Shown here in pieces: positions 986 through 12,395 of a DNA stretch of 64,000 nt. This stretch comes from Kineothrix alysoides. GTDB taxonomy: Bacteria > Bacillota > Clostridia > Lachnospirales > Lachnospiraceae. Location of the stretch: NCBI RefSeq assembly GCF_000732725.1, contig NZ_JPNB01000002.1, forward strand, positions 310,001 to 374,000. The letters are read 5' to 3'. Below the pieces are notes generated by a model. It worked only from the letters and a program-made list of their open reading frames with translations. It had not been told where the DNA came from and ran no database searches. Both the position numbers and the translations under genes were made by a program. How positions within the stretch are numbered: the first letter of the stretch is position 1; the number at the start of each line of letters is the position of its first letter.

Positions 986-1936
986 TTAATTAATTTCTCT
1001 TACTCTGCAGCAAGCTACATAATGGTTTTTTTCAATCTCTTCCAGCTTTTGAGGTTGTTTACAGTCCTTAATCGCGTAGGGACACCTCGCTAAAAATCTG
1101 CAGCCCTGCTCCGGATTAATCGGCGAGGTGATTTCTCCCTTTAGCTGAACCCGCTGCATGGGGTGATAAATATCTGTAGATGGAATAGCTGACAGCAAAG
1201 CTTGCGTATAAGGGTGAAGTGTATTTAGAAACAAATCTTCTGTGGATGCCTTCTCTACAAGCTGTCCCAGGTACATGACACAAATTGTATTGGAAATATG
1301 TCTTACTACAGAAAGATCATGCGTCACAAACATATATGCAATTCCTGTTTTTTCCTGCAGATCCATAAGTAAATTCAATACTTGCGCCTGAATCGAGACA
1401 TCTAATGCCGATACGGGTTCATCACAAACAATAAAATCCGGATTCAGCGCTAATGCCCTGGCGATACCCACTCTTTGACGACGGCCCCCATCTAATTCAT
1501 GGGGATAGGATTGTCTTAGCCTCTCATCTACACCCACTAATTCCATTAATCTATGCGTCTGATCTTTTAATTCAGCTTTTGTTTTGTAAAGTTTAGAATG
1601 TCTTAAGGGTTCCATAATCGTAGATTCGATACGAATTCTCGGATTAAGGCTTGAATATGGATCCTGAAATACAATCTGCATTTTCTCTCGTACCCGCCTT
1701 AATTCATTTCCCTTTGCATTTGTAATATCATTTCCATTTAATAAGATCTTACCACCCGTTGCATCCTGCAATCTTATCATGGTTCTTCCCAACGTGCTTT
1801 TTCCACATCCTGATTCTCCAACAACACCTAGCGTTTCGCCTTTTTCAATCTTGAAAGAAACATCGTCTACTGCGTGATTAAGCCCAGTTGGAACTTTAAA
1901 GTACTTTTTTAAATTTTGCACTTCAATTAATGACAT
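986..1936 (-). CDS. Oligopeptide/dipeptide ABC transporter ATP-binding protein (OppF/DppF type), altered signature motif
   Basis: This 316-residue cytoplasmic ATPase would energise the transporter with its partner encoded just upstream. Visible elements are Walker A GESGCGKST (residues 40-48), the Q-loop QDP near 91, Walker B IVCDEP near 172, the H-loop histidine in VTHDLS, and a C-terminal oligopeptide-transporter domain with paired cysteines (GCRFLARCP). The ABC signature, normally LSGGQ, reads LDGGR at 148-152, changing two conserved positions. The start ATG at 1936 overlaps the end of the preceding ATPase gene by ten bases, so the two are translationally coupled. Substrate cannot be told from the ATPase. 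Confidence 0.9.
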   Translation of the reverse strand: MSLIEVQNLKKYFKVPTGLNHAVDDVSFKIEKGETLGVVGESGCGKSTLGRTMIRLQDATGGKILLNGNDITNAKGNELRRVREKMQIVFQDPYSSLNPRIRIESTIMEPLRHSKLYKTKAELKDQTHRLMELVGVDERLRQSYPHELDGGRRQRVGIARALALNPDFIVCDEPVSALDVSIQAQVLNLLMDLQEKTGIAYMFVTHDLSVVRHISNTICVMYLGQLVEKASTEDLFLNTLHPYTQALLSAIPSTDIYHPMQRVQLKGEITSPINPEQGCRFLARCPYAIKDCKQPQKLEEIEKNHYVACCRVREIN

Positions 1937-2916
1937 GTTTTCTCCTCCTGTTTTAAGTTACAGCACCGGCAAAAATGTCCTTCCGCTATTTCAGCAAATG
2001 GGATTTCCTCTTTACTGCATTCCTCTGTAACAAAAGGACATCTTGGTGCAAAAGAGCATCCCATTGGCAGGCATGTGGGATCAGGCGGTGAACCGATTAT
2101 CGGGTTTAATCTTTTCTGTCCCTGTGTCATGCTTGGCAGTGAATTAAATAGTCCAATCGTATATGGGTGGGACGGCGATAAAAATAAATCTTTTTTTGTG
2201 GCATACTCAATGATCTTACCTGCATAAACAACCGCAACATTATCACTTGTTTCTGCAACAACACCAAGGTCATGCGTAATTAAAATCATTGATGTATTAT
2301 GCTTTACTCTTAAGGTTTTAATCAAATCCAAGACCTGTGCCTGAATCGTAACATCAAGCGCCGTGGTAGGTTCATCCGCTAATAACAATATAGGATTGCA
2401 CGCTAATGCCATCGCAATAACAACCCGCTGTTTCATACCTCCTGAAAACTCAAACGGATATTCCACATAACGTGCCTTAGGTATTCCAACTAATTCCAGC
2501 ATTTCCTCTGCTTTTTCTATTGCTTCTTCTTTCGTGTAATCATTATGCAAGAGCAAGCCCTCTGTAATCTGATCACCAACAGTCATTAAGGGATTTAATG
2601 CTGTCATCGGGTCTTGAAAAATCATTGCGATTTTTTCACCTTTGATTTTCAATTTCTTTGCATCCGGCATACTAATGAGCTCTTCTCCTTCAAGCCATAT
2701 CTCTCCCCCAATAAGTTTGGCAGGCGGGTTAGGAAGAATGCCCAAAATTGATTTGGCAATTGTTGTTTTTCCTGCTCCGGTTTCTCCGACAAGCGCTAAC
2801 GTTTCACCCTTGTTCATATCGAATGAAACTTTGTTTACTGCCTGAACTACTTTTTTGCCTGATGTATATACTACTTCCAGATCCCGTACGGATAGGATTT
2901 TTTTTTCATCATTCAT
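1927..2916 (-). CDS. Oligopeptide/dipeptide ABC transporter ATP-binding protein (OppD/DppD type)
   Basis: This 329-residue ATPase is the partner of the following gene. It has Walker A GETGAGKTT (44-52), the normal signature FSGGM followed by KQRVVIAMAL, Walker B LLLADEP, the D-loop TALD, and the C-terminal oligo_HPY region with GCSFAPRCP and a cysteine-rich end. Its signature is intact, unlike that of its partner, so one of the two composite ATP sites should be canonical. The gene sits 13 bases after the upstream permease gene, in the order SBP, permease, permease, ATPase, ATPase. Confidence 0.92.
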   Translation of the reverse strand: MNDEKKILSVRDLEVVYTSGKKVVQAVNKVSFDMNKGETLALVGETGAGKTTIAKSILGILPNPPAKLIGGEIWLEGEELISMPDAKKLKIKGEKIAMIFQDPMTALNPLMTVGDQITEGLLLHNDYTKEEAIEKAEEMLELVGIPKARYVEYPFEFSGGMKQRVVIAMALACNPILLLADEPTTALDVTIQAQVLDLIKTLRVKHNTSMILITHDLGVVAETSDNVAVVYAGKIIEYATKKDLFLSPSHPYTIGLFNSLPSMTQGQKRLNPIIGSPPDPTCLPMGCSFAPRCPFVTEECSKEEIPFAEIAEGHFCRCCNLKQEEKTCH

Positions 2917-2929
2917 TTTTTATTCCCTC

Positions 2930-3787
2930 TTACTTTCTTAATTTTGGATCCATTGCATCTCTCAACCCATCACCGATTAAATTAATCGCTAATACCGTTA
3001 ATGCAATAAATAATCCCGGGAACATAATTAAGTATGGATAGTTTAAAATATGAGTACGTGCATCAGCCAGCATTGCTCCCCATTCCGGAGTGGGCGGCTG
3101 AACGCCAAGTCCAATATACGAAAGCGCTGCTGCCATCGTAATAGTCATTCCGATTCCCATAGTTGCATCTACGATTACAGGAGAAATAACATTTGGCAAT
3201 AAATGACGAAACATAATACTGATCTTAGAACAATTAATTGATTCAGCAGCTTCGAGGTACTCCTTTGAACGTTCGGAAAGAATCTGTCCGCGAATCAGGC
3301 GTACACCAATTGGAACATTTCCAATTGAAAGTGCGAGTACTGTATTAAAGAAACCTGCTCCTAGCACAGCAGAAATTAAAATGCATAAAAGCATACTTGG
3401 CAATGATGACCAGATGTCCATGAAGCGCATGATTATCGTTTCGGCTTGTCCCCCTAAATAACCTGCTACGCTTCCAATAATTATTCCGATCACCGAACCT
3501 ACAACAGCTGCACATATACCCAGCGCCAATGAATACCGTCCTCCGTATAATAGCCGGCTGAACAGATCACGTCCCATTCCATCGGTGCCCATTATATGCT
3601 TCGCACTTGGTCCCTTAAACATATTTTTCAAATCCATTTCATTTAATCCATATGATGCTATAAATGGTGCGAATATACACGCTGAAACAATTATAACTAA
3701 TATTATAATTCCAACTTTTGCTCCTGGATTCGACCAGATTCTACTCATAGTCTCTGCAAAAAGAGAGGACCTTTTTTCTTTTCTCAT
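2930..3787 (-). CDS. ABC transporter permease (DppC/OppC type)
   Basis: This 285-residue inner-membrane permease has about six hydrophobic helices. An N-terminal cytoplasmic tail and first helix (VGIIILVIIVSACIFAPF) precede the OppC_N-like HIMGTDGMGRDLFSRLLYGGR motif, a hallmark of this subfamily. The cytoplasmic EAA-like loop lies near EYLEAAESINCSKISIMFRHLLPN, followed by the conserved GLGVQPPTPEWGAML. The start codon overlaps the stop of the upstream permease gene by one base, indicating translational coupling. It pairs with the DppB-type permease to form the translocation channel. Confidence 0.93.
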   Translation of the reverse strand: MRKEKRSSLFAETMSRIWSNPGAKVGIIILVIIVSACIFAPFIASYGLNEMDLKNMFKGPSAKHIMGTDGMGRDLFSRLLYGGRYSLALGICAAVVGSVIGIIIGSVAGYLGGQAETIIMRFMDIWSSLPSMLLCILISAVLGAGFFNTVLALSIGNVPIGVRLIRGQILSERSKEYLEAAESINCSKISIMFRHLLPNVISPVIVDATMGIGMTITMAAALSYIGLGVQPPTPEWGAMLADARTHILNYPYLIMFPGLFIALTVLAINLIGDGLRDAMDPKLRK

Positions 3788-4737
3788 TATTTCATCCTCC
3801 TTCTCGCATTAGAATACTGCGCTTTAATTCTAGGATCTACAAATGCATAAACAAGGTCGACCAACAACATTGAAAGTGCTGTAAATACTGCAAAAAACAG
3901 AACACATGCGCGGACTACCGGATAATCACGACTATTAATTGCCGTAAGCAAGTAAAGACCAACACCTGGAATTGAGAATACGCTTTCAATAACTGCCGAC
4001 CCGGCAACTACACGTGCAAACCCATTCCCTATTGACGTAATAATCGGCATTAGTGCATTAGGAAGCATATGTCCGTATATTACTCTGCCTTCCTTCTGCC
4101 CTTTTGCCCTTGCTGTTGTTATATAGTCCTCGCGAAAGACTCCTAAAATACTGGCACGTGTTTGCCTTGCGTTAACTGCTATACCACCAAGTGCACTACA
4201 AATTATCGGCATAATATAATATTGCGGTCCACCAATTCCATAGGATGGCAGCCACCCCAATTGCGATGAGAATAATAGAATCATTATTAACGCCACCCAA
4301 AAATCAGGGCATGAAATAAAAATCATTGCTATCCCCATGGTAAGCGAATCATACCATTTTCCTTCATGTGTTGCAGCAAAAATGCCCATTAATAATCCAA
4401 GGGTTAAATTCAATGCCATTGCTGATAAACCAATGATCAAGGTTCTTGGAAGTCTGATAACCAATTCATGCAAAACAGGTTTATCATATACCCACGATGT
4501 GCCTAAATCAAACTTAATAAATGTGTTGTACATAAATTCTCTTAACTGCCCAAAGTACGATTTGTCAAGTCCTAATAAATGACGTAAATTTGCCACATCT
4601 TCCGCCTTTGCATTTCCACCGGCAATAACAACTGCCGGATCCCCCGGTGTAAAATAAAGGATTGTAAAAATCACCAATGCAGTTCCAAATACGATCACCA
4701 TCATCCATAACAATCGCTTTAATATATATCTTCCCAT
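3787..4737 (-). CDS. ABC transporter permease (DppB/OppB type)
   Basis: The start is placed at the ATG at 4737, giving 316 residues. It has a GGAG six bases upstream, and the upstream extension to 4782 would run through a strong RNA hairpin. The protein begins MGRYILKRLLWMMVIVFG, the usual basic start and first helix of DppB, followed by the conserved FTPGDPAVVIAG. Further motifs are the HELVIRLPRTL region, the cytoplasmic loop REDYITTARAKGQKE with HMLPNALMPII, and a C-terminal end rich in hydrophobic helices. It forms the membrane channel with the next gene product. Confidence 0.92.
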   Translation of the reverse strand: MGRYILKRLLWMMVIVFGTALVIFTILYFTPGDPAVVIAGGNAKAEDVANLRHLLGLDKSYFGQLREFMYNTFIKFDLGTSWVYDKPVLHELVIRLPRTLIIGLSAMALNLTLGLLMGIFAATHEGKWYDSLTMGIAMIFISCPDFWVALIMILLFSSQLGWLPSYGIGGPQYYIMPIICSALGGIAVNARQTRASILGVFREDYITTARAKGQKEGRVIYGHMLPNALMPIITSIGNGFARVVAGSAVIESVFSIPGVGLYLLTAINSRDYPVVRACVLFFAVFTALSMLLVDLVYAFVDPRIKAQYSNARRRMK

Positions 4738-4765
4738 ACTTTTCTCCATTCCAATGGCATACCTT

Positions 4766-4819
4766 AAAATAGCAGTATCCAATTCTTCAGTATTATTAAA
4801 GACTGGATACTGTTATTTT
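4766..4819 (-). terminator. Intercistronic hairpin after the binding-protein gene
   Basis: Sixteen-base arms, with one mismatch, at 4766-4781 and 4804-4819 enclose a 22-base loop. The hairpin sits between the substrate-binding protein stop (4828) and the permease start (4737). Only a short T-run follows on the minus strand, so partial termination or protection of the upstream mRNA from 3' decay is more likely than full termination. Such elements commonly raise binding-protein levels over permeases. Confidence 0.65.
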
Positions 4820-4827
4820 ACATAAAG

Positions 4828-6504
4828 CTAATCAAGATAGTAGTCACATGAACCTGCCCGAAGAAATTCACTTTCACGATAAACCAGTGTTGCAAAATCC
4901 TCACTATACACTGAATTCGTAGCAGGTGAGCATAATGCATAGTAATAACCATTTTCTAAAATGTAATTGACGAAATCTGTTTCGTTTTCTTCAGTATGTC
5001 CGGCAAGTGATTTAACATTTAGCAATTTTTCCTGTAATGTATCATCTGCAATAAATGACATATTATATCCTGTTCCAAATTCAGTATTGTTCATAGGACG
5101 ATTCCACTCCCCGACCTGTGAACCTCCGCCAATCTGACTGATCAAAATATCCCATTTGGTATAGTCAAGCATATCAGTCTGTGCAAGAGCCGCTTCTTCT
5201 GCTACGATTTCTACATTAATACCTGCCTGTAATAATAAAGCCTGAATCATTGTCATCATCGTCTTTATTGTCTCATCACTAGGTGCGAGCAATGTTAACG
5301 TTTCGCCGTTATATCCGGACTTTGATAAATATTCTTTCGCTTTTTCAAGGTCGCAAGATGCCATATAATTATCCGGATTTTCTTCCCATGAAGAATAATA
5401 ATCACTAAAGAATGATGTGCCCAATGCTTTGGCTGCCACCGTATTTCCTGTCGCGGCAGAGATCGCTTCATTGTCAAGCGCATAATAAATCGCTTTTCTA
5501 AGGTTAACATCAGCGGTCAGTTTACCTTCATAATTGTTACACATCAGCATATACAGACCGCTGCCCTGCGTTACATAAACATCATTTCCTTCTGCATACT
5601 GACCACCCTCCGCAAAATCGGCAAGGTTTTCAGCAGGGATATATTCAGAGTACTGGATCTGTCCTGTGCTAAGCGCTATTACATGTTGGGATGTTTCTGC
5701 AATTATATTGTATTCTATCGTCTGAACATTAGCTAAATGTTCCGGATCACGTAATTCATCTTTTTGCCAATAATCATCATTAGCTTCCAATACACAACGA
5801 GAACCTGATACAAATTCTGAAACTTTATATGGCCCCGTTGCCACAGGTGCATCCGTAAAATTACCTTCTTCATATGCTTTTTGAGAAACAATACATGTTC
5901 TGCACCATGGCCATTCCAAAGCGCCAAGGGAATCAATGGGTGCTGTCCATGTAAATCGAACGGTATAATCATCCACTTTTTCTACACTTTTAAAACTGTC
6001 GAATTTAAATGCATTGCCTGAATCAACCAAAAGATTCAAAGAAAAAACTACGTCATCTGCTGTGATATGATTTCCCGCTGTATCATAAATGTAGTCATAT
6101 ATTTCTACATCCCAGTGAAGATCGTCAACTTCTGTATATCCTTTTGCTAATATCGGGATATACTCATTGTTTCTGAAATCAAAAAGTGGTTCATAGAAAT
6201 TATAGTAAATAAACAATTTACTATTATCACCATTCATGGATGTTGGTGCGAGATCCTTCGGATCACTGATCATGCCTATAGAAATTTTGTCGTACCGTTC
6301 ATCGCTTTCTGCTGTTGTTTTTCTTGAAGTATCTGCTGTCGGTGCAACATCCGCATCCGCCAGTGCCGCCGATTCAGATTCGGCTGCAGCGTCCTGTGCC
6401 TCTGTTTTTACTGCCTGATCACCTGCGGAACTTCCGCATCCTGTAACAAGTGAAGCCGTCATTGTTGCGCATAATAATAATGCCGCGATTTTTTTTCCTT
6501 TCAT
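4828..6504 (-). CDS. Extracellular solute-binding lipoprotein, family 5 (peptide/organic solute)
   Basis: This 558-residue lipoprotein captures substrate outside the cell. The signal peptide ends in a lipobox, LVTGC, with the lipidated cysteine at residue 23, followed by an acidic, alanine-rich linker. The mature part shows the family-5 pattern: early SIGMISDPKDLAPTS, a middle FTDAPVATGPYKVSEF segment, and late DLEKAKEYLSKSGYNGE. A perfect AAGGAGG lies seven to eight bases before the ATG. In this family substrates include peptides, nickel, opines, glycosides and aromatic conjugates. The hydrolase genes next to it suggest a non-peptide or conjugated substrate, which is an inference. Confidence 0.92.
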   Translation of the reverse strand: MKGKKIAALLLCATMTASLVTGCGSSAGDQAVKTEAQDAAAESESAALADADVAPTADTSRKTTAESDERYDKISIGMISDPKDLAPTSMNGDNSKLFIYYNFYEPLFDFRNNEYIPILAKGYTEVDDLHWDVEIYDYIYDTAGNHITADDVVFSLNLLVDSGNAFKFDSFKSVEKVDDYTVRFTWTAPIDSLGALEWPWCRTCIVSQKAYEEGNFTDAPVATGPYKVSEFVSGSRCVLEANDDYWQKDELRDPEHLANVQTIEYNIIAETSQHVIALSTGQIQYSEYIPAENLADFAEGGQYAEGNDVYVTQGSGLYMLMCNNYEGKLTADVNLRKAIYYALDNEAISAATGNTVAAKALGTSFFSDYYSSWEENPDNYMASCDLEKAKEYLSKSGYNGETLTLLAPSDETIKTMMTMIQALLLQAGINVEIVAEEAALAQTDMLDYTKWDILISQIGGGSQVGEWNRPMNNTEFGTGYNMSFIADDTLQEKLLNVKSLAGHTEENETDFVNYILENGYYYALCSPATNSVYSEDFATLVYRESEFLRAGSCDYYLD

Positions 6505-6548: not shown

Positions 6549-7331
6549 CTATAATAGATTCATTCCACCACTTAAATCAAGAAAAGTTCCTGTTGTGAAT
6601 CCAATTTCTTCGCTTGCGAGATAGCAAATAGCTTGTGCAAGATCTTCCGCTGTTCCCATTCTGCCTGCAGGCACATTTGTCAAAAATTTCGTTGTGTCTT
6701 TGATTGGCGGTAAATCCTTATCTCTTATACCTTCCGGTTTTATTCGTTCTATTGGTCCTTTAACTATACAGTTTACGTTGATACCTTCACCAGCCAGTCT
6801 CGCTGCACAATTTTTAGTTAATGATGCCACAGCACCTTTCGCTACAGCGTTTGAAAAGCTCTCAAGAATCCCCCCCTTAACTCCTTCTACGGTGGTCATA
6901 AATATTACCCTTGCCGCTCTGCTTTTTCGAAGGTATGGTAATCCGCTTTTTAAAAGTGTATAGCTCCCGCCCACCAAATGATCTATGCTCTTCAATAAAG
7001 TTTGTGTATCTACAGAATCAATGCTGTCTTCAACACCATCATCTCCGGTATTGCAGATAATGACATCAATGGAACCAAATGTATTATAAATGTCTTTAAA
7101 AATCTCTTCATCCGACTTAGGCGGTGTCTGACATTTGCCATCTTGTACAATCAGGCACTTCCCTTTATAATTCATTTCATTGATTTCATTCATTAACGCC
7201 TGTGCCTGTGCCATTTGATGTGTCAGCATAATAACATTCATTCCATATTTACAGAGTTCCCTGGCAGACATTATACCGTCTCCGCCCGTTGCTCCTGCAA
7301 AAACACAAGTTCTTCCTTCTAATGTTAACAT
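6549..7331 (-). CDS. SDR-family protein lacking the catalytic tyrosine
   Basis: The start is set at the ATG at 7331 (260 residues), preceded by AAAGGAGG; the upstream extension overlaps the previous gene and lacks such a site. It has a Rossmann N-terminus, LEGRTCVFAGATGGDGIM, where the usual TGxxxGIG is altered. CNTGDDG stands where NNAG is expected, and the C-terminal end is a typical SDR one (GRMGTAEDLAQAICYL, then TGTFLDLSGG). The active-site YxxxK is not present: the segment reads SFSNAVAKGAV, with asparagine four places before the lysine, and the catalytic serine region reads FMTTVEG. The protein may bind NAD(P) and use different chemistry, or have a non-dehydrogenase role. It lies between the binding protein and a hydrolase gene in one transcription unit. 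Confidence 0.8.
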   Translation of the reverse strand: MLTLEGRTCVFAGATGGDGIMSARELCKYGMNVIMLTHQMAQAQALMNEINEMNYKGKCLIVQDGKCQTPPKSDEEIFKDIYNTFGSIDVIICNTGDDGVEDSIDSVDTQTLLKSIDHLVGGSYTLLKSGLPYLRKSRAARVIFMTTVEGVKGGILESFSNAVAKGAVASLTKNCAARLAGEGINVNCIVKGPIERIKPEGIRDKDLPPIKDTTKFLTNVPAGRMGTAEDLAQAICYLASEEIGFTTGTFLDLSGGMNLL

Positions 7332-7363
7332 TATATTTATTTCCTCCTTTATGCGAAGTTCAT

Positions 7364-8650
7364 TCACATGAATCTTCTCATCCAAGTACCCATATAGTCA
7401 TATAGCACTTTCTCTGTATCTCCAAAACTTCCATGTTTTTTTTGCGCCAAATAATTTGGTGTAAACGTATGTCCTGCTCCATGAATAAACGCAATTGTTT
7501 TATCTCTCATTTGAGCATTTTCAAATATCATCTCAGCTGCAAGATATTCATAACTTCCCGTCAAGCCTATTGTTAAAAGCGGCACATTTATGTGCTTAAT
7601 ATTCGATATAGGAGATGCATAACAGGAATTCCAATCGATCCCGACAATATCATCTTCTTTTACTAAGAACTCATCCGTTGCATCAATTGCCTGAGAGCTC
7701 AAAAAACCTTTTACTGTAGTAGCATTAGCACCCATGTTATAAAATTTCGAAAAACAAAAATCTATTTCCGGCGTTCTTACACAATGAATGATTTCATTTG
7801 TCACCGTACCATCTCCGTGTAACAGATCATACGGTTTTTTAGTATGACTTAAGAAGTGCAAATCTTCCGGAATCAATCTGTTGTTCGGTTTTGGTTGATT
7901 GCCCGCAGTAATAATAAATGGCTCGTCGTCTGCATAATTTCCCTTGCCGGCATTAATTAACTCAAGTCTGTTTAATGCAAGCTTAATGAGACGTCTATTT
8001 CTATCTGCCTGCGCCTTAAAATATTTCTTAATAAATGCTTCCGTATAATGCGCCCCTTCCGGATCATAACCATTTGCAGGATTAAAGATATCCAATTCCG
8101 GGTCAAGCCTCATACCATTTCCCTCTTCAATGACCGCAGGATCCAGGCTTAATAATGTCATGACTCCATTTCCATAGTTTGCGTCGATCAGCATAATTCC
8201 ATCTGCCGGAATCAGCTCTTCCTGTATTGTAGTTGCATAAATTTTTTCATTGCCACGATAAATTTGAGCGCCGTTCTCAGCAATACTCTGGTAAGCTGTC
8301 ATCAGAGTTGCTCCTCCACTATGTCCCATTAAAATAACCTTTTTAACACCCGGGAGGCTCTTCAAAAAATTCATTGCTTTATTTAATGTTCTGAATTTAT
8401 TTTCTATTTCACCAAATTCAGAGTCACATGCCAATACTTGAAATCCCTGACTTGCAAGTTGCGGTCCCATATTTTGTGACATATAATTCTGGTCACAATG
8501 CATCAATAAAACCGCAATATTACTAAGTTCATTTTTCTTTTTCGCTGAGTAGTACATACCGAGTGCACCAAAGCCCATCTCAACAAGCTGCTCCTCCACA
8601 TCTTCTACAATGTCTCTATAATAAATCCCTTTTGAATTTAAACGATACAT
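7364..8650 (-). CDS. Alpha/beta hydrolase of unknown substrate
   Basis: The ATG at 8650 has GGAGG seven bases upstream and gives 428 residues. A nucleophile elbow GHSGG (109-113, serine 111) follows the strand KKVILM. A late FIHGAGHTFTP supplies a candidate catalytic histidine, preceded by a strand ending VPLLTIGLTGS. No signal peptide is seen, so it acts in the cytoplasm. The length exceeds a minimal hydrolase; the region between the elbow and the C-terminal strands is long enough for a cap domain. Its gene starts 13 bases after the amidohydrolase gene. Esterase, lactonase or C-C hydrolase activity are all possible and the sequence does not decide between them. Confidence 0.8.
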   Translation of the reverse strand: MYRLNSKGIYYRDIVEDVEEQLVEMGFGALGMYYSAKKKNELSNIAVLLMHCDQNYMSQNMGPQLASQGFQVLACDSEFGEIENKFRTLNKAMNFLKSLPGVKKVILMGHSGGATLMTAYQSIAENGAQIYRGNEKIYATTIQEELIPADGIMLIDANYGNGVMTLLSLDPAVIEEGNGMRLDPELDIFNPANGYDPEGAHYTEAFIKKYFKAQADRNRRLIKLALNRLELINAGKGNYADDEPFIITAGNQPKPNNRLIPEDLHFLSHTKKPYDLLHGDGTVTNEIIHCVRTPEIDFCFSKFYNMGANATTVKGFLSSQAIDATDEFLVKEDDIVGIDWNSCYASPISNIKHINVPLLTIGLTGSYEYLAAEMIFENAQMRDKTIAFIHGAGHTFTPNYLAQKKHGSFGDTEKVLYDYMGTWMRRFM

Positions 8651-8663
8651 TTTATCCCTCCTG

Positions 8664-9707
8664 TTATTCTTCAATTTTATAAAGTTTCTGGGCATTTTTC
8701 CCTAAGACTAGTCCCTTTTCAAATTCAGAAATGTCAAGGTTATTCACAAATTCAACTCCTCCCAGCAGCCATTCTCTGCGCACAGGATAAGATGTACCGA
8801 AGATCACATGATCTGCCCCCAGTATTTTTATTGCACATTCCAATTGTACCTTTCCCCATGGCTGTGCATGAGACATTTCGAAATATATGTTATTCTTAAA
8901 TTGTTCTTCAACTTTTTCGTTGTCAGTTTCAAATCGATTTACTGTTTCTGTCTTTGTCTTCTTTGGAAACAGCATATTGCTGATTGCAAAAAATCCGCCT
9001 CCGAGCATAGAATGCACAAACTTGATATTAGGATACTTCACAAAAAATCCGCTAAATAGTTCTCTGCTGATTGCAAGTCCCTGGTCTACACATCTGCCAT
9101 AGGAGCGTCTGACATTATTAAATTCATAAAAAGAATTATATTCCACGGGTACCGGTGTGTGGTGTATATACACTGTCATATCTAATTCATTTACTTTTTC
9201 AAAAAACAATCCGAACCTTTCATCATCCAAATAAACGTCCCCATAATGTGCCGACATTTGAAGGGCATTTATATGAAGCTTATCATGGCATCTTACAAGT
9301 TCATCTATGTTTTCCTGAGTCGGGTAGGGAGGAACAATGGCAAGCGGTATTAATCGTCCATTACTCTTTTTTGCATGTTCATACATTTTATCATTGAAAT
9401 AACGACTCATCGAAAGTCCCATCCATTCCTGGCAACAGGGAACTTTTAAAACTGCTTTTTCAACACCTGCAATATCTAGATCATTTAACTGATTTTCTAA
9501 TATATAATCATGTTGTGCGTAATTCAAATTTTGAAATCCTTTTGGCTTCTCTAAGACGATCTGCTTTAAACCATTTTTTTCTGCAATTTCTTCTGAATAA
9601 CCATACCATCCATATTCGCCCGGAATTTCATCTAAAAATTGTTTCATCAACTCTTCATCATCAAAAAGCTCTTCCGGAAACCAATACATATTTGCATCAA
9701 TAATCAT
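8664..9707 (-). CDS. Amidohydrolase-superfamily (ACMSD-like) protein with lost metal ligands
   Basis: This 347-residue protein has the fold signature of the amidohydrolase-2 family, which includes ACMSD and resorcylate decarboxylase. It shows an N-terminal IDANMYWFP segment, VYIHHTP around 179-185, FVHSMLGGGF around 231, and a C-terminal IFGTSYP followed by KNAQKLY. Metal-binding members have HxH at the N-terminus and Asp in FGTDYP. Here these positions are asparagine 6, tyrosine 8 and serine 306, so only the central histidines remain. The protein is therefore probably metal-free or binds metal differently. RBS TAGGAG precedes the ATG. It is co-oriented with the flanking hydrolases. Confidence 0.82.
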   Translation of the reverse strand: MIIDANMYWFPEELFDDEELMKQFLDEIPGEYGWYGYSEEIAEKNGLKQIVLEKPKGFQNLNYAQHDYILENQLNDLDIAGVEKAVLKVPCCQEWMGLSMSRYFNDKMYEHAKKSNGRLIPLAIVPPYPTQENIDELVRCHDKLHINALQMSAHYGDVYLDDERFGLFFEKVNELDMTVYIHHTPVPVEYNSFYEFNNVRRSYGRCVDQGLAISRELFSGFFVKYPNIKFVHSMLGGGFFAISNMLFPKKTKTETVNRFETDNEKVEEQFKNNIYFEMSHAQPWGKVQLECAIKILGADHVIFGTSYPVRREWLLGGVEFVNNLDISEFEKGLVLGKNAQKLYKIEE

Positions 9708-9958: not shown

Positions 9959-10426
9959 CTATGAGATTTTCTTCTCCATAAAAATTGTCCGAAAAATCAG
10001 TCTTACAAGGGGTCCCACGTAGAAAACCTGTATGATCAAAGCAAATGGAAAATTTACCAGTAATTTTTGCAACCACAATATAATAATTTCTTTTACAAAT
10101 CCATGATGATAAAATGCTACTGATAATGTCATGATTGGCGCCATAATGCAAACAGTAAAACAAGCCATTGCCACCAATATGAAAATTGGTTTATCTACTC
10201 CGGGCGTAAACACTCTTGATGTCAATTTTCTTGCAAGTGGCCCTGCTATGTATTTTTGTGCAAAAAATGCTACGATCGCTTCAAACCACATTCCTTTTAT
10301 TGCATTAGCAAATGTTTCATAACTTAATCCAAATTCTAACGCCATATTGTAGCAGGTCATACAATAAACCATCGTAAATACCATAATAATTGTAAATATA
10401 AAATCCTGTGATTTTGTTTTTGGCAT
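9959..10426 (-). CDS. DUF2798-type membrane protein
   Basis: The start at 10426 has GGAGG five bases upstream and gives 155 residues beginning MPKTKSQDFIFT, the usual start of this family. Two similar halves each contain two hydrophobic helices: FTIIMVFTMVYCMTCYN and the GMWFEAIVAFFAQKYIAGPLA region, then FILVAMACFTVCIMAPIM and a C-terminal helix before FYVGPLVRLIF. It is a four-helix inner-membrane protein of unknown function, often seen next to LysR-regulated or transport genes. Its gene follows the esterase gene directly in the LysR-divergent operon. Confidence 0.75.
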   Translation of the reverse strand: MPKTKSQDFIFTIIMVFTMVYCMTCYNMALEFGLSYETFANAIKGMWFEAIVAFFAQKYIAGPLARKLTSRVFTPGVDKPIFILVAMACFTVCIMAPIMTLSVAFYHHGFVKEIIILWLQKLLVNFPFALIIQVFYVGPLVRLIFRTIFMEKKIS

Positions 10427-10468
10427 CTTTTCCTCCATAATAACCTTAATTTGATTTATTTTTTGCAT

Positions 10469-11365
10469 TTAACAATTATGTCTTTTTAAAAATTTCAGGG
10501 CCAGATCTGCCCAAATCGTGACATCCTCATTGATCAGTTCCTGATTACATGTAGAGTTCTCATTCGCCAGTGCAAGCCCATGAAATCCCTCTTCAAACAC
10601 GTGAATTTCATAAGGTATATGAAAAGCACTTAACCTTTCAGCAAATCTAAGCGATTGCTCTGCATAAACGAGTTCATCCTTTGATGTATGCCACAAAAAT
10701 GTTGGCGGTGTTTTTTCAGAAACATAATAGTATGGACTTGCTCTTTTATACTGCTCTTCAGTAGCATTAACTCCAACACCGGCTTCCAAAAACATTTCAA
10801 GAAAATCTTTTTTTTTCATCCCTATGCTTGGTGAGAAAGGATTGATCTCCGGTTCACTCATGCTTCTTTCTATTTGATATAAATAATCAAGCATAGGATA
10901 ACAAAGAACTACTGCATTCGGCCTTATCTTCTCAGGCTCAATACCTGGATCAACTTTGTTCAAAATCAAATTATCATTCCATTGAGTTGCAAGAGATGCA
11001 CAAATCTGCCCTCCCGCAGAAAAGCCTATTACAGTTATACTATCCTGATTTATTTTCCATTTTTCTGAATTTGTTCTAATGATCAACATTAGCTTTGCAA
11101 GATCTGTAACGGGCTCCGGGTAGCAGGCAAGCCCCGTAGCTTTCGTGATGTAATCAAGCGTAAAAACCTGATACCCTTTGCTAAGAAAATACATCGCCAC
11201 CGGCTGTTTCTCACGCTCAGTAATTCTCATAAACCCACCGCCTCCACATATTACAACAGCCGGATGCATCCTTCCCGAATCTACTTCAGCCGAATTATCA
11301 AGTAAATACATCGTATAACTCGCTCTGCGTTTATCATTCCAAACTTTTTTCTTTTCAACAATCAT
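10469..11365 (-). CDS. Alpha/beta hydrolase, acetylesterase/lipase-like
   Basis: This 298-residue cytoplasmic hydrolase resembles the small acetylesterases of gut Firmicutes. The oxyanion-hole loop is GGGGF (41-45) rather than the classic HGGG. The nucleophile motif GFSAGG contains serine 116, LWHTSKDELV supplies the acid, and FEEGFHGLAL the histidine. CYPEPVTDLAKLM before the elbow matches the DxxxA pattern of this group. It is the first gene of the operon divergent from LysR, with RBS GGAGGG before the ATG at 11365. Removal of acetyl or other short acyl groups is the likely activity; the substrate is unknown. Confidence 0.82.
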   Translation of the reverse strand: MIVEKKKVWNDKRRASYTMYLLDNSAEVDSGRMHPAVVICGGGGFMRITEREKQPVAMYFLSKGYQVFTLDYITKATGLACYPEPVTDLAKLMLIIRTNSEKWKINQDSITVIGFSAGGQICASLATQWNDNLILNKVDPGIEPEKIRPNAVVLCYPMLDYLYQIERSMSEPEINPFSPSIGMKKKDFLEMFLEAGVGVNATEEQYKRASPYYYVSEKTPPTFLWHTSKDELVYAEQSLRFAERLSAFHIPYEIHVFEEGFHGLALANENSTCNQELINEDVTIWADLALKFLKRHNC

Positions 11366-11482: not shown

Positions 11483-11519
11483 GATTTTAGTGTTTTAAAA
11501 AATTAGCGTGGAGGTATTT

Positions 11520-12395
11520 ATGGATCTTGACTATATCAAGGATTTTGTTATTTTAGCTGAGGTCGGAAACTATTTGGAAGCCGCAGATCAACTATTCATT
11601 TCACAATCTTCTTTAACACGGCATATACAACAATTAGAAAAAGACCTTGGTGTAACACTTTTCGATAGAACCACACGCAAGGTTTCATTAAATCGATACG
11701 GACAATTGTTTCTTCCTTACGCAAATAAAATGGTTCAGATCCGATATGAATATGAAACAGCGTTTTACAATGAACTAAAGAATATAAATAGTAACTTGAA
11801 TATTGGTTCTATCCCTTCAATGGTTCAATACAATATTACCGATTTATTGATTAAATTTAAAAACAAGAATACTAGTTTTAGTTTAAATGTGATTGAAGCA
11901 GAAACGCACGAGTTAAAAGAAATGCTTCGAAATAATAAATGTGATTTAGCATTTATACGTGAAACAGATTATTCAGATAACGAATTTGTACGCATCCCTT
12001 ATTCCATTGATTCGATGGTCGCGGTTCTTCCATTAGACCATCCTTTGTCAAAATCAGACAGCATAGCTTTGGAACAATTGAAGAACGAAAAATTTATTCT
12101 TTTACCTGAACATTCACTCATGTATGATCTATGCGTCAGTGAATGTAAAAAAGCCGGATTTGAACCTGAAATTGTATTTACAGGTCATAGAGGTGAGAAC
12201 TTAATTGATATGGTCAGCAAAGGAGCAGGCTGCGCATTATTAATGAAACGTCCGGCGGTATTTTTATCAAATGCCAATACCGTTTTAGTCGATATCTATC
12301 CGCAGGTCTGTACAAAAATCAGCCTTTGCTATAAAAAAAATCATGAGCTTTCAATTGCCGCCCGGCATTTTATCAATTGTCTGACCGCAATGTAA
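11520..12395 (+). CDS. LysR-family transcriptional regulator
   Basis: The start is taken at the ATG at 11520, five bases after GGAGG; a GTG at 11508 overlaps that site. The 291-residue protein has an N-terminal winged helix-turn-helix (residues 1-60; EVGNYLEAADQLFISQSSLTRHIQQLEKDLG is split here by the recognition helix) followed by the two-lobed effector-binding domain with LNIGSIPSM, CDLAFIRE and MVSKGAGCALL. It is transcribed divergently from the esterase-to-ABC cluster with shared promoter elements, so it almost certainly controls that cluster in response to the transported compound or a product. The effector is unknown. Confidence 0.93.
   Translation: MDLDYIKDFVILAEVGNYLEAADQLFISQSSLTRHIQQLEKDLGVTLFDRTTRKVSLNRYGQLFLPYANKMVQIRYEYETAFYNELKNINSNLNIGSIPSMVQYNITDLLIKFKNKNTSFSLNVIEAETHELKEMLRNNKCDLAFIRETDYSDNEFVRIPYSIDSMVAVLPLDHPLSKSDSIALEQLKNEKFILLPEHSLMYDLCVSECKKAGFEPEIVFTGHRGENLIDMVSKGAGCALLMKRPAVFLSNANTVLVDIYPQVCTKISLCYKKNHELSIAARHFINCLTAM

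Follow-up and report, generated by a model that had tools for sequence, protein, structure and literature searches.

The window analysed here, a 64,000-nucleotide stretch of Kineothrix alysoides contig NZ_JPNB01000002.1, holds at 8664-9707 on the minus strand a gene for a 347-residue Amidohydro_2 protein, a predicted TIM barrel of the ACMSD/LigW type without the canonical metal-ligand set. The open reading frame (9707-8664, minus strand) starts with ATG behind a good Shine-Dalgarno sequence, TAGGAGAG, and has no internal stops. Before it lie genes for a BD-FAE / lp_1002 arylesterase-like hydrolase (10469-11365) and a DUF2798 membrane protein (9959-10468); after it come an alpha/beta-hydrolase-like protein (7364-8650), a short-chain dehydrogenase/reductase (SDR; 6549-7385), an extracellular solute-binding protein of family 5 (SBP_bac_5; 4828-6504) and an Opp-type ABC transporter of two permeases and two ATPases (986-4782), the last named by sequence inspection. 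All of these genes, from 11365 down to 986, are on the minus strand with mostly short gaps, and a divergent LysR gene, the probable operon regulator, lies alongside (11508-12395, plus strand). The genes are thus arranged as one operon would be, placing the focal gene in a putative operon with the SDR, the hydrolases and the Opp transporter. The alpha/beta-hydrolase-like gene is listed as an open reading frame of 7364-8695 that overlaps the focal gene; the ATG at 8650 behind AGGAGGG is probably the real start of a shorter, non-overlapping protein.

The focal protein matches the Pfam Amidohydro_2 family (PF04909) with 58.1 bits, above the curated cut-off of 26.4. Its best solved sequence matches are 5-carboxyvanillate decarboxylase, gamma-resorcylate decarboxylase (gamma-RSD) and ACMSD, and profile alignment to LigW, LigW2 and gamma-RSD gives a best match of 112 bits at an identity of only about 20%. 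Among the nearest solved relatives whose reactions are known, decarboxylases predominate; hydratases and C-C hydrolases stand lower among the matches listed. The first-pass annotation had proposed structure prediction and alignment to ACMSD and resorcylate decarboxylase, and an AlphaFold2 model built with 43 input sequences (pLDDT 93.5, pTM 0.92) indeed has the ACMSD-type fold. It aligns over its full length with LigW, ACMSD and gamma-RSD at Z 32-34 (297-318 residues aligned), e.g. with LigW at Z 34.3 over 309 residues and with human ACMSD at Z 33.4 over 318 residues. As modelled, the focal protein is a member of the ACMSD/LigW branch of the amidohydrolase superfamily, a TIM barrel from end to end.

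Three metal-ligand positions had been singled out in the first-pass annotation as replaced, and all three replacements are borne out by the codons, read from the raw sequence on the minus strand, and by the alignment register. N6 (AAT, 9690-9692) stands at the site of ligand 1, His or Glu in relatives, and Y8 (TAT, 9684-9686) at that of ligand 2, His in relatives; the strand-1 pair is therefore N-x-Y in the focal protein and N-x-H in a sister branch, and the [H/E]xH of ACMSD, LigW and gamma-RSD is absent. At the end of strand 8 the family motif FGTDYP reads FGTSYP, with S306 (TCT, 8790-8792) in place of the Asp ligand that ACMSD, LigW and gamma-RSD carry in xxDYP. In a MAFFT alignment with 25 distant relatives, N6 and Y8 fall in the [H/E]xH columns, H182 takes the column of the strand-5 His and S306 that of the Asp; HMM alignment to LigW, LigW2 and gamma-RSD gives the same columns for S306 and H182. 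Structural alignment matches the first residue of the model to position 1 in human ACMSD, 4 in P. fluorescens ACMSD, 3 in gamma-RSD and 14 in LigW2, and these pairings set N6 and Y8 on the known first ligand pair of those enzymes. Most of the distant relatives in the MAFFT alignment carry an intact ligand set, with variation at ligand 1 (E, H, Q, even F).

That the central histidines persist, as also annotated at first, is correct in part. The strand-5 metal-ligand His of ACMSD, LigW and gamma-RSD is present as H182, followed by H183 in place of the family's Pro (codons 9159-9164, minus strand). The strand-6 catalytic His ([A/G]H.G in the same enzymes), on the other hand, is not kept in place: its column is occupied by the conserved M234, and an invariant His is found two residues earlier at 232 (H232-S233-M234, 9006-9014, minus strand). 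A further His, H154 (9246-9248, minus strand), lies at the end of strand 4 and is invariant in the scanned clade.

The same replacements extend well beyond the window. The window's own genome has a single clade copy together with distant relatives, and a search of 299 genomes of its family found five close homologues in three other genomes; they are 56-76% identical, and each has N6, Y8 and S306. A scan in which every species was represented by a single genome yielded 93 relatives, of which 80 were kept; the set of 86 sequences, in which a few loci are counted twice, once per search, spans Bacillota, Actinomycetota, Chloroflexota, Spirochaetota and Acidobacteriota at 41-76% identity. Asn occupies position 6 in 85 of 86 and position 8 is Tyr in 43 and His in 42, counts that are partly conditioned by the scan, since one of its two seed patterns contained N and Y; the H branch was reached through the other pattern, its 42 members being recovered despite His at position 8. 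Unseeded searches also return relatives with N6 and S306, and unseeded tblastn matched plasmids of Enterococcus raffinosus (56%) and Thioclava (45%) that carry the ligand replacements. Ser is found at 306 in 85 of 85 sequences, and in the set of 86 H182 is kept in 84, H183 and H232 in 85 each and H154 in all. Fixed or nearly so are H182, H232, H154, H183, H280, a basic residue (K/R) at 88, R200, R201 and R205. Positions that are at least 90% conserved are modestly concentrated at the C-terminal ends of the strands (29/81 versus 56/266, odds ratio 2.1, p 0.012). Close homologues with an HxH at a shifted position were looked for and none was found; all have NxY or NxH except one divergent CxD.

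Position 8 divides the clade into a Y branch, which includes the window and is mostly from gut or anaerobic bacteria, and an H branch. The clade is remote from other sampled relatives, the window protein scoring 593 bits within it and about 106 for the next best. In a tree of 45 clade members and 23 distant relatives the two groups are separated by a branch with SH-aLRT 100, although the long outgroup branches make its exact sister group unsure. The earliest-branching members, from a Dehalococcoidia genome (L041) and from Thioclava (L115, a sequence without its first Met), are both N-x-H, which suggests that the ancestor of the clade already had Asn-6 and Ser-306 and that Tyr-8 arose later, in the window's branch. 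Ligands 1 (His/Glu to Asn) and 4 (Asp to Ser) are replaced clade-wide, the early-branching members included, and the second His is replaced by Tyr in the window's branch. Ligand loss in Amidohydro_2 is uncommon, yet it is found outside this clade as well: in a sample of 30 other Amidohydro_2 loci of Bacillota, most have HxH and Asp by a rough classification from pattern, and the novelty of the clade is tempered by two other degenerate lineages there. L116 (DFRVR) and L134 (DFRFR with ASAHP) in this sample have likewise lost ligands, and L119 and L141 too have altered ligand motifs.

Parts of the window's gene neighbourhood recur in the Y branch. By counts that, as for the H branch, rest on tblastn, a LysR gene such as that of the window is near 21 of 39 Y-branch genes, and the alpha/beta-hydrolase-like protein and the SDR are each found in 8 of 39 loci; the Opp transporter families recur as well. 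Across the branch the gene is accompanied by a transporter, either Opp-type ABC or beta-glucoside PTS, and by LysR, esterases, SDR, MatE and metallo-beta-lactamase-fold proteins. Two related families with weak Ceramidase_alk similarity (L023:1691-2953, L029:11640-12812, L114:13052-15477) are steady partners, often followed by a beta-glucoside PTS (Enterococcus, Clostridium neonatale); a relationship of these to DUF3500 was considered and rejected, the families being unrelated by profile comparison. A phloroglucinol pathway as in C. scatologenes was also rejected for the window: its ring-opening enzyme, a Mn-dependent "cyclase" family protein (PMC10470551), has a different fold, and the window SDR falls below every NCBIfam cut-off.

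H-branch genes are found in aromatic-catabolism clusters. Within 10 kb at 42 loci there are DUF3500 in 30, an FAD monooxygenase of the PhzS/salicylate hydroxylase kind in 28, an FAH-family hydrolase in 28, dienelactone hydrolase (DLH) in 24 and an HpaD-type extradiol dioxygenase in 14, and a SnoaL-like protein and a RidA protein are also regularly near. The fullest gene set is that of the Thioclava plasmid, where the FAD monooxygenase directly precedes the focal homologue, the FAH-family hydrolase directly follows it, and HpaH and HpaI homologues are additionally present. Pyrogallol hydroxytransferase-like Mo enzymes (large-subunit relatives) occur in two loci. This context points to catabolism of polyhydroxylated aromatics by the putative H-branch enzymes, with the step left unfixed. 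A DUF3500 protein of Aspergillus nidulans has been proposed to convert 1,2,3,5-tetrahydroxybenzene to 5-hydroxydienelactone (PMC12388069), and it is possible that the DUF3500 H-branch loci are a bacterial counterpart of that fungal pathway; these clustered DUF3500 genes are bacterial, whereas a 2026 fungal database paper describes the 1,2,3,5-tetrahydroxybenzene pathway as one that seems confined to fungi (PMC13094099). Loci such as L065, L064, L073 and L115 combine DUF3500, FAD monooxygenase, dienelactone hydrolase, FAH-family hydrolase and HpaD. A 384-residue protein family with no Pfam or PDB matches (L050:6239-7390, relatives in L041 and L071) adjoins a seven-bladed lactonase-like propeller and lies near the focal homologue in three phyla. 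No enzymes are common to the Y- and H-branch neighbourhoods, which share only regulators and transporters, and because the contexts differ, transfer of function between the branches is weak.

On balance the clade is probably an undescribed monophyletic subfamily of ACMSD/LigW relatives that no longer have the canonical mononuclear metal site and are nonetheless working catabolic enzymes; of the two roles first suggested for the focal protein, metal-free enzyme or binding protein, the former is the likeliest reading, the metal-free state being one that we infer. No reported activity for any clade member was found in the literature. N6, Y/H8, K/R88, H154, H182, H183, R200, R201, R205, H232, H280 and S306 would suit acid binding and general acid-base catalysis. 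An acidic substrate would be bound in the pocket via Arg/Lys, and histidines would provide acid-base catalysis, with Asn and Ser supplying hydrogen bonds at the former place of the metal. The chemistry would be that of C-C bonds, with non-oxidative decarboxylation, or a related cleavage of the retro-aldol or hydrolytic type, as the likeliest reaction; decarboxylation is the first guess as the commonest reaction of the nearest solved relatives, among which C-C hydrolysis and hydration occur too. Judging from gene context, the H branch may act on an acid that arises in the catabolism of polyhydroxylated aromatics, either before the ring is opened or afterwards. In the anaerobic Y branch of the window the substrate may be an acid derived from an imported compound (an ester, a glycoside or something peptide-like) that is processed together with the esterase, SDR and Opp transporter under LysR control. 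More speculative, and offered tentatively, is the view that across the whole lineage the metal site became a metal-free acid-base site of His, Asn and Ser. Such a site would serve polyphenol catabolism through a decarboxylation or C-C cleavage that is new: soil bacteria would use it in aerobic pathways of the tetrahydroxybenzene type, and gut anaerobes with the further His-to-Tyr change.

The conserved histidines can also be read as a rearranged site that still holds a catalytic divalent metal, H182 acting with H232, H154, H183, H280 or E277 (and H8 in the H branch), in which case the clade would be ordinary metal-dependent amidohydrolases with unusual ligands. This is a real possibility, if the less probable one: six histidines are near-invariant, several of them at strand ends, H182 is at a true ligand position, and ligand 1 varies in the family, where E, H, Q and even F occur. 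However, the whole clade is without ligands 1 and 4 and half of it also without ligand 2, Asn, Ser and Tyr make poor substitutes, and the register of H232 differs from that of the family's strand-6 His.

A non-catalytic pseudoenzyme, i.e. a binding or sensing protein or partner subunit that uses the old barrel as a ligand pocket, appears unlikely. The canonical catalytic residues are lost, and CRMP/DRP and inactive dihydroorotase partners are precedents in the wider superfamily, but an intact paralogue alongside the clade genes is absent from the neighbour lists and the active face has many fixed polar or charged residues. The "binding protein" of the first-pass annotation is less likely, since the barrel strands carry the replaced positions and other invariants at their C-terminal ends, and the genes lie inside catabolic operons. 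That this is a decaying pseudogene, merely unusual-looking, is barely conceivable even with three ligand sites altered in one gene, as the frame is intact with a ribosome-binding site, identical changes occur in relatives across phyla, and dN from the focal gene to five near relatives is 0.16-0.25 with synonymous sites saturated. The conservation of N6 and S306 at the counts given above led to its rejection, and the earlier judgement that the changes are not random decay is strongly supported.

The reading as metal-free catabolic enzymes has several consequences. Annotation pipelines label clade members "amidohydrolase family protein", a name that presupposes a metal site; a clade that is conserved over several phyla without one would show that the fold keeps working after ligand loss, and its NxH to NxY change would be a natural series for studying the ligand change. 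The clade would also point to an unassigned step in bacterial breakdown of polyhydroxylated aromatics.

Several known systems bear comparison with the clade. CRMP/DRP and the inactive dihydroorotase homologues are non-catalytic superfamily members without metal ligands, and thus share ligand loss with the clade; they belong, however, to a different branch, and a partner role is not indicated here. LigI, the 2-pyrone-4,6-dicarboxylate lactonase (cog3618), is an amidohydrolase-superfamily enzyme that acts independently of divalent metal on an aromatic-derived acid and is thus a precedent for metal-independent work in the superfamily. LigI is of another subfamily and retains histidines at the ligand positions, unlike the clade, which does not retain the full set; it is absent among the sequence matches and the 50 fold matches listed, though it may yet be kin. 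ACMSD shares the fold (Z 33), with its N-terminal strand in register so that its HxH is opposite N6-M7-Y8, but its HxH and Asp zinc ligands are missing here and no kynurenine-pathway genes were noted nearby. LigW/LigW2 and gamma-RSD have the same full-length fold (Z 32-34) and the kept strand-5 His, and the H branch lies beside aromatic catabolism genes; they differ in that their E-x-H and Asp ligands are N-x-Y/H and Ser in the clade, and in that the column of their strand-6 catalytic His is Met, with a His two residues earlier.
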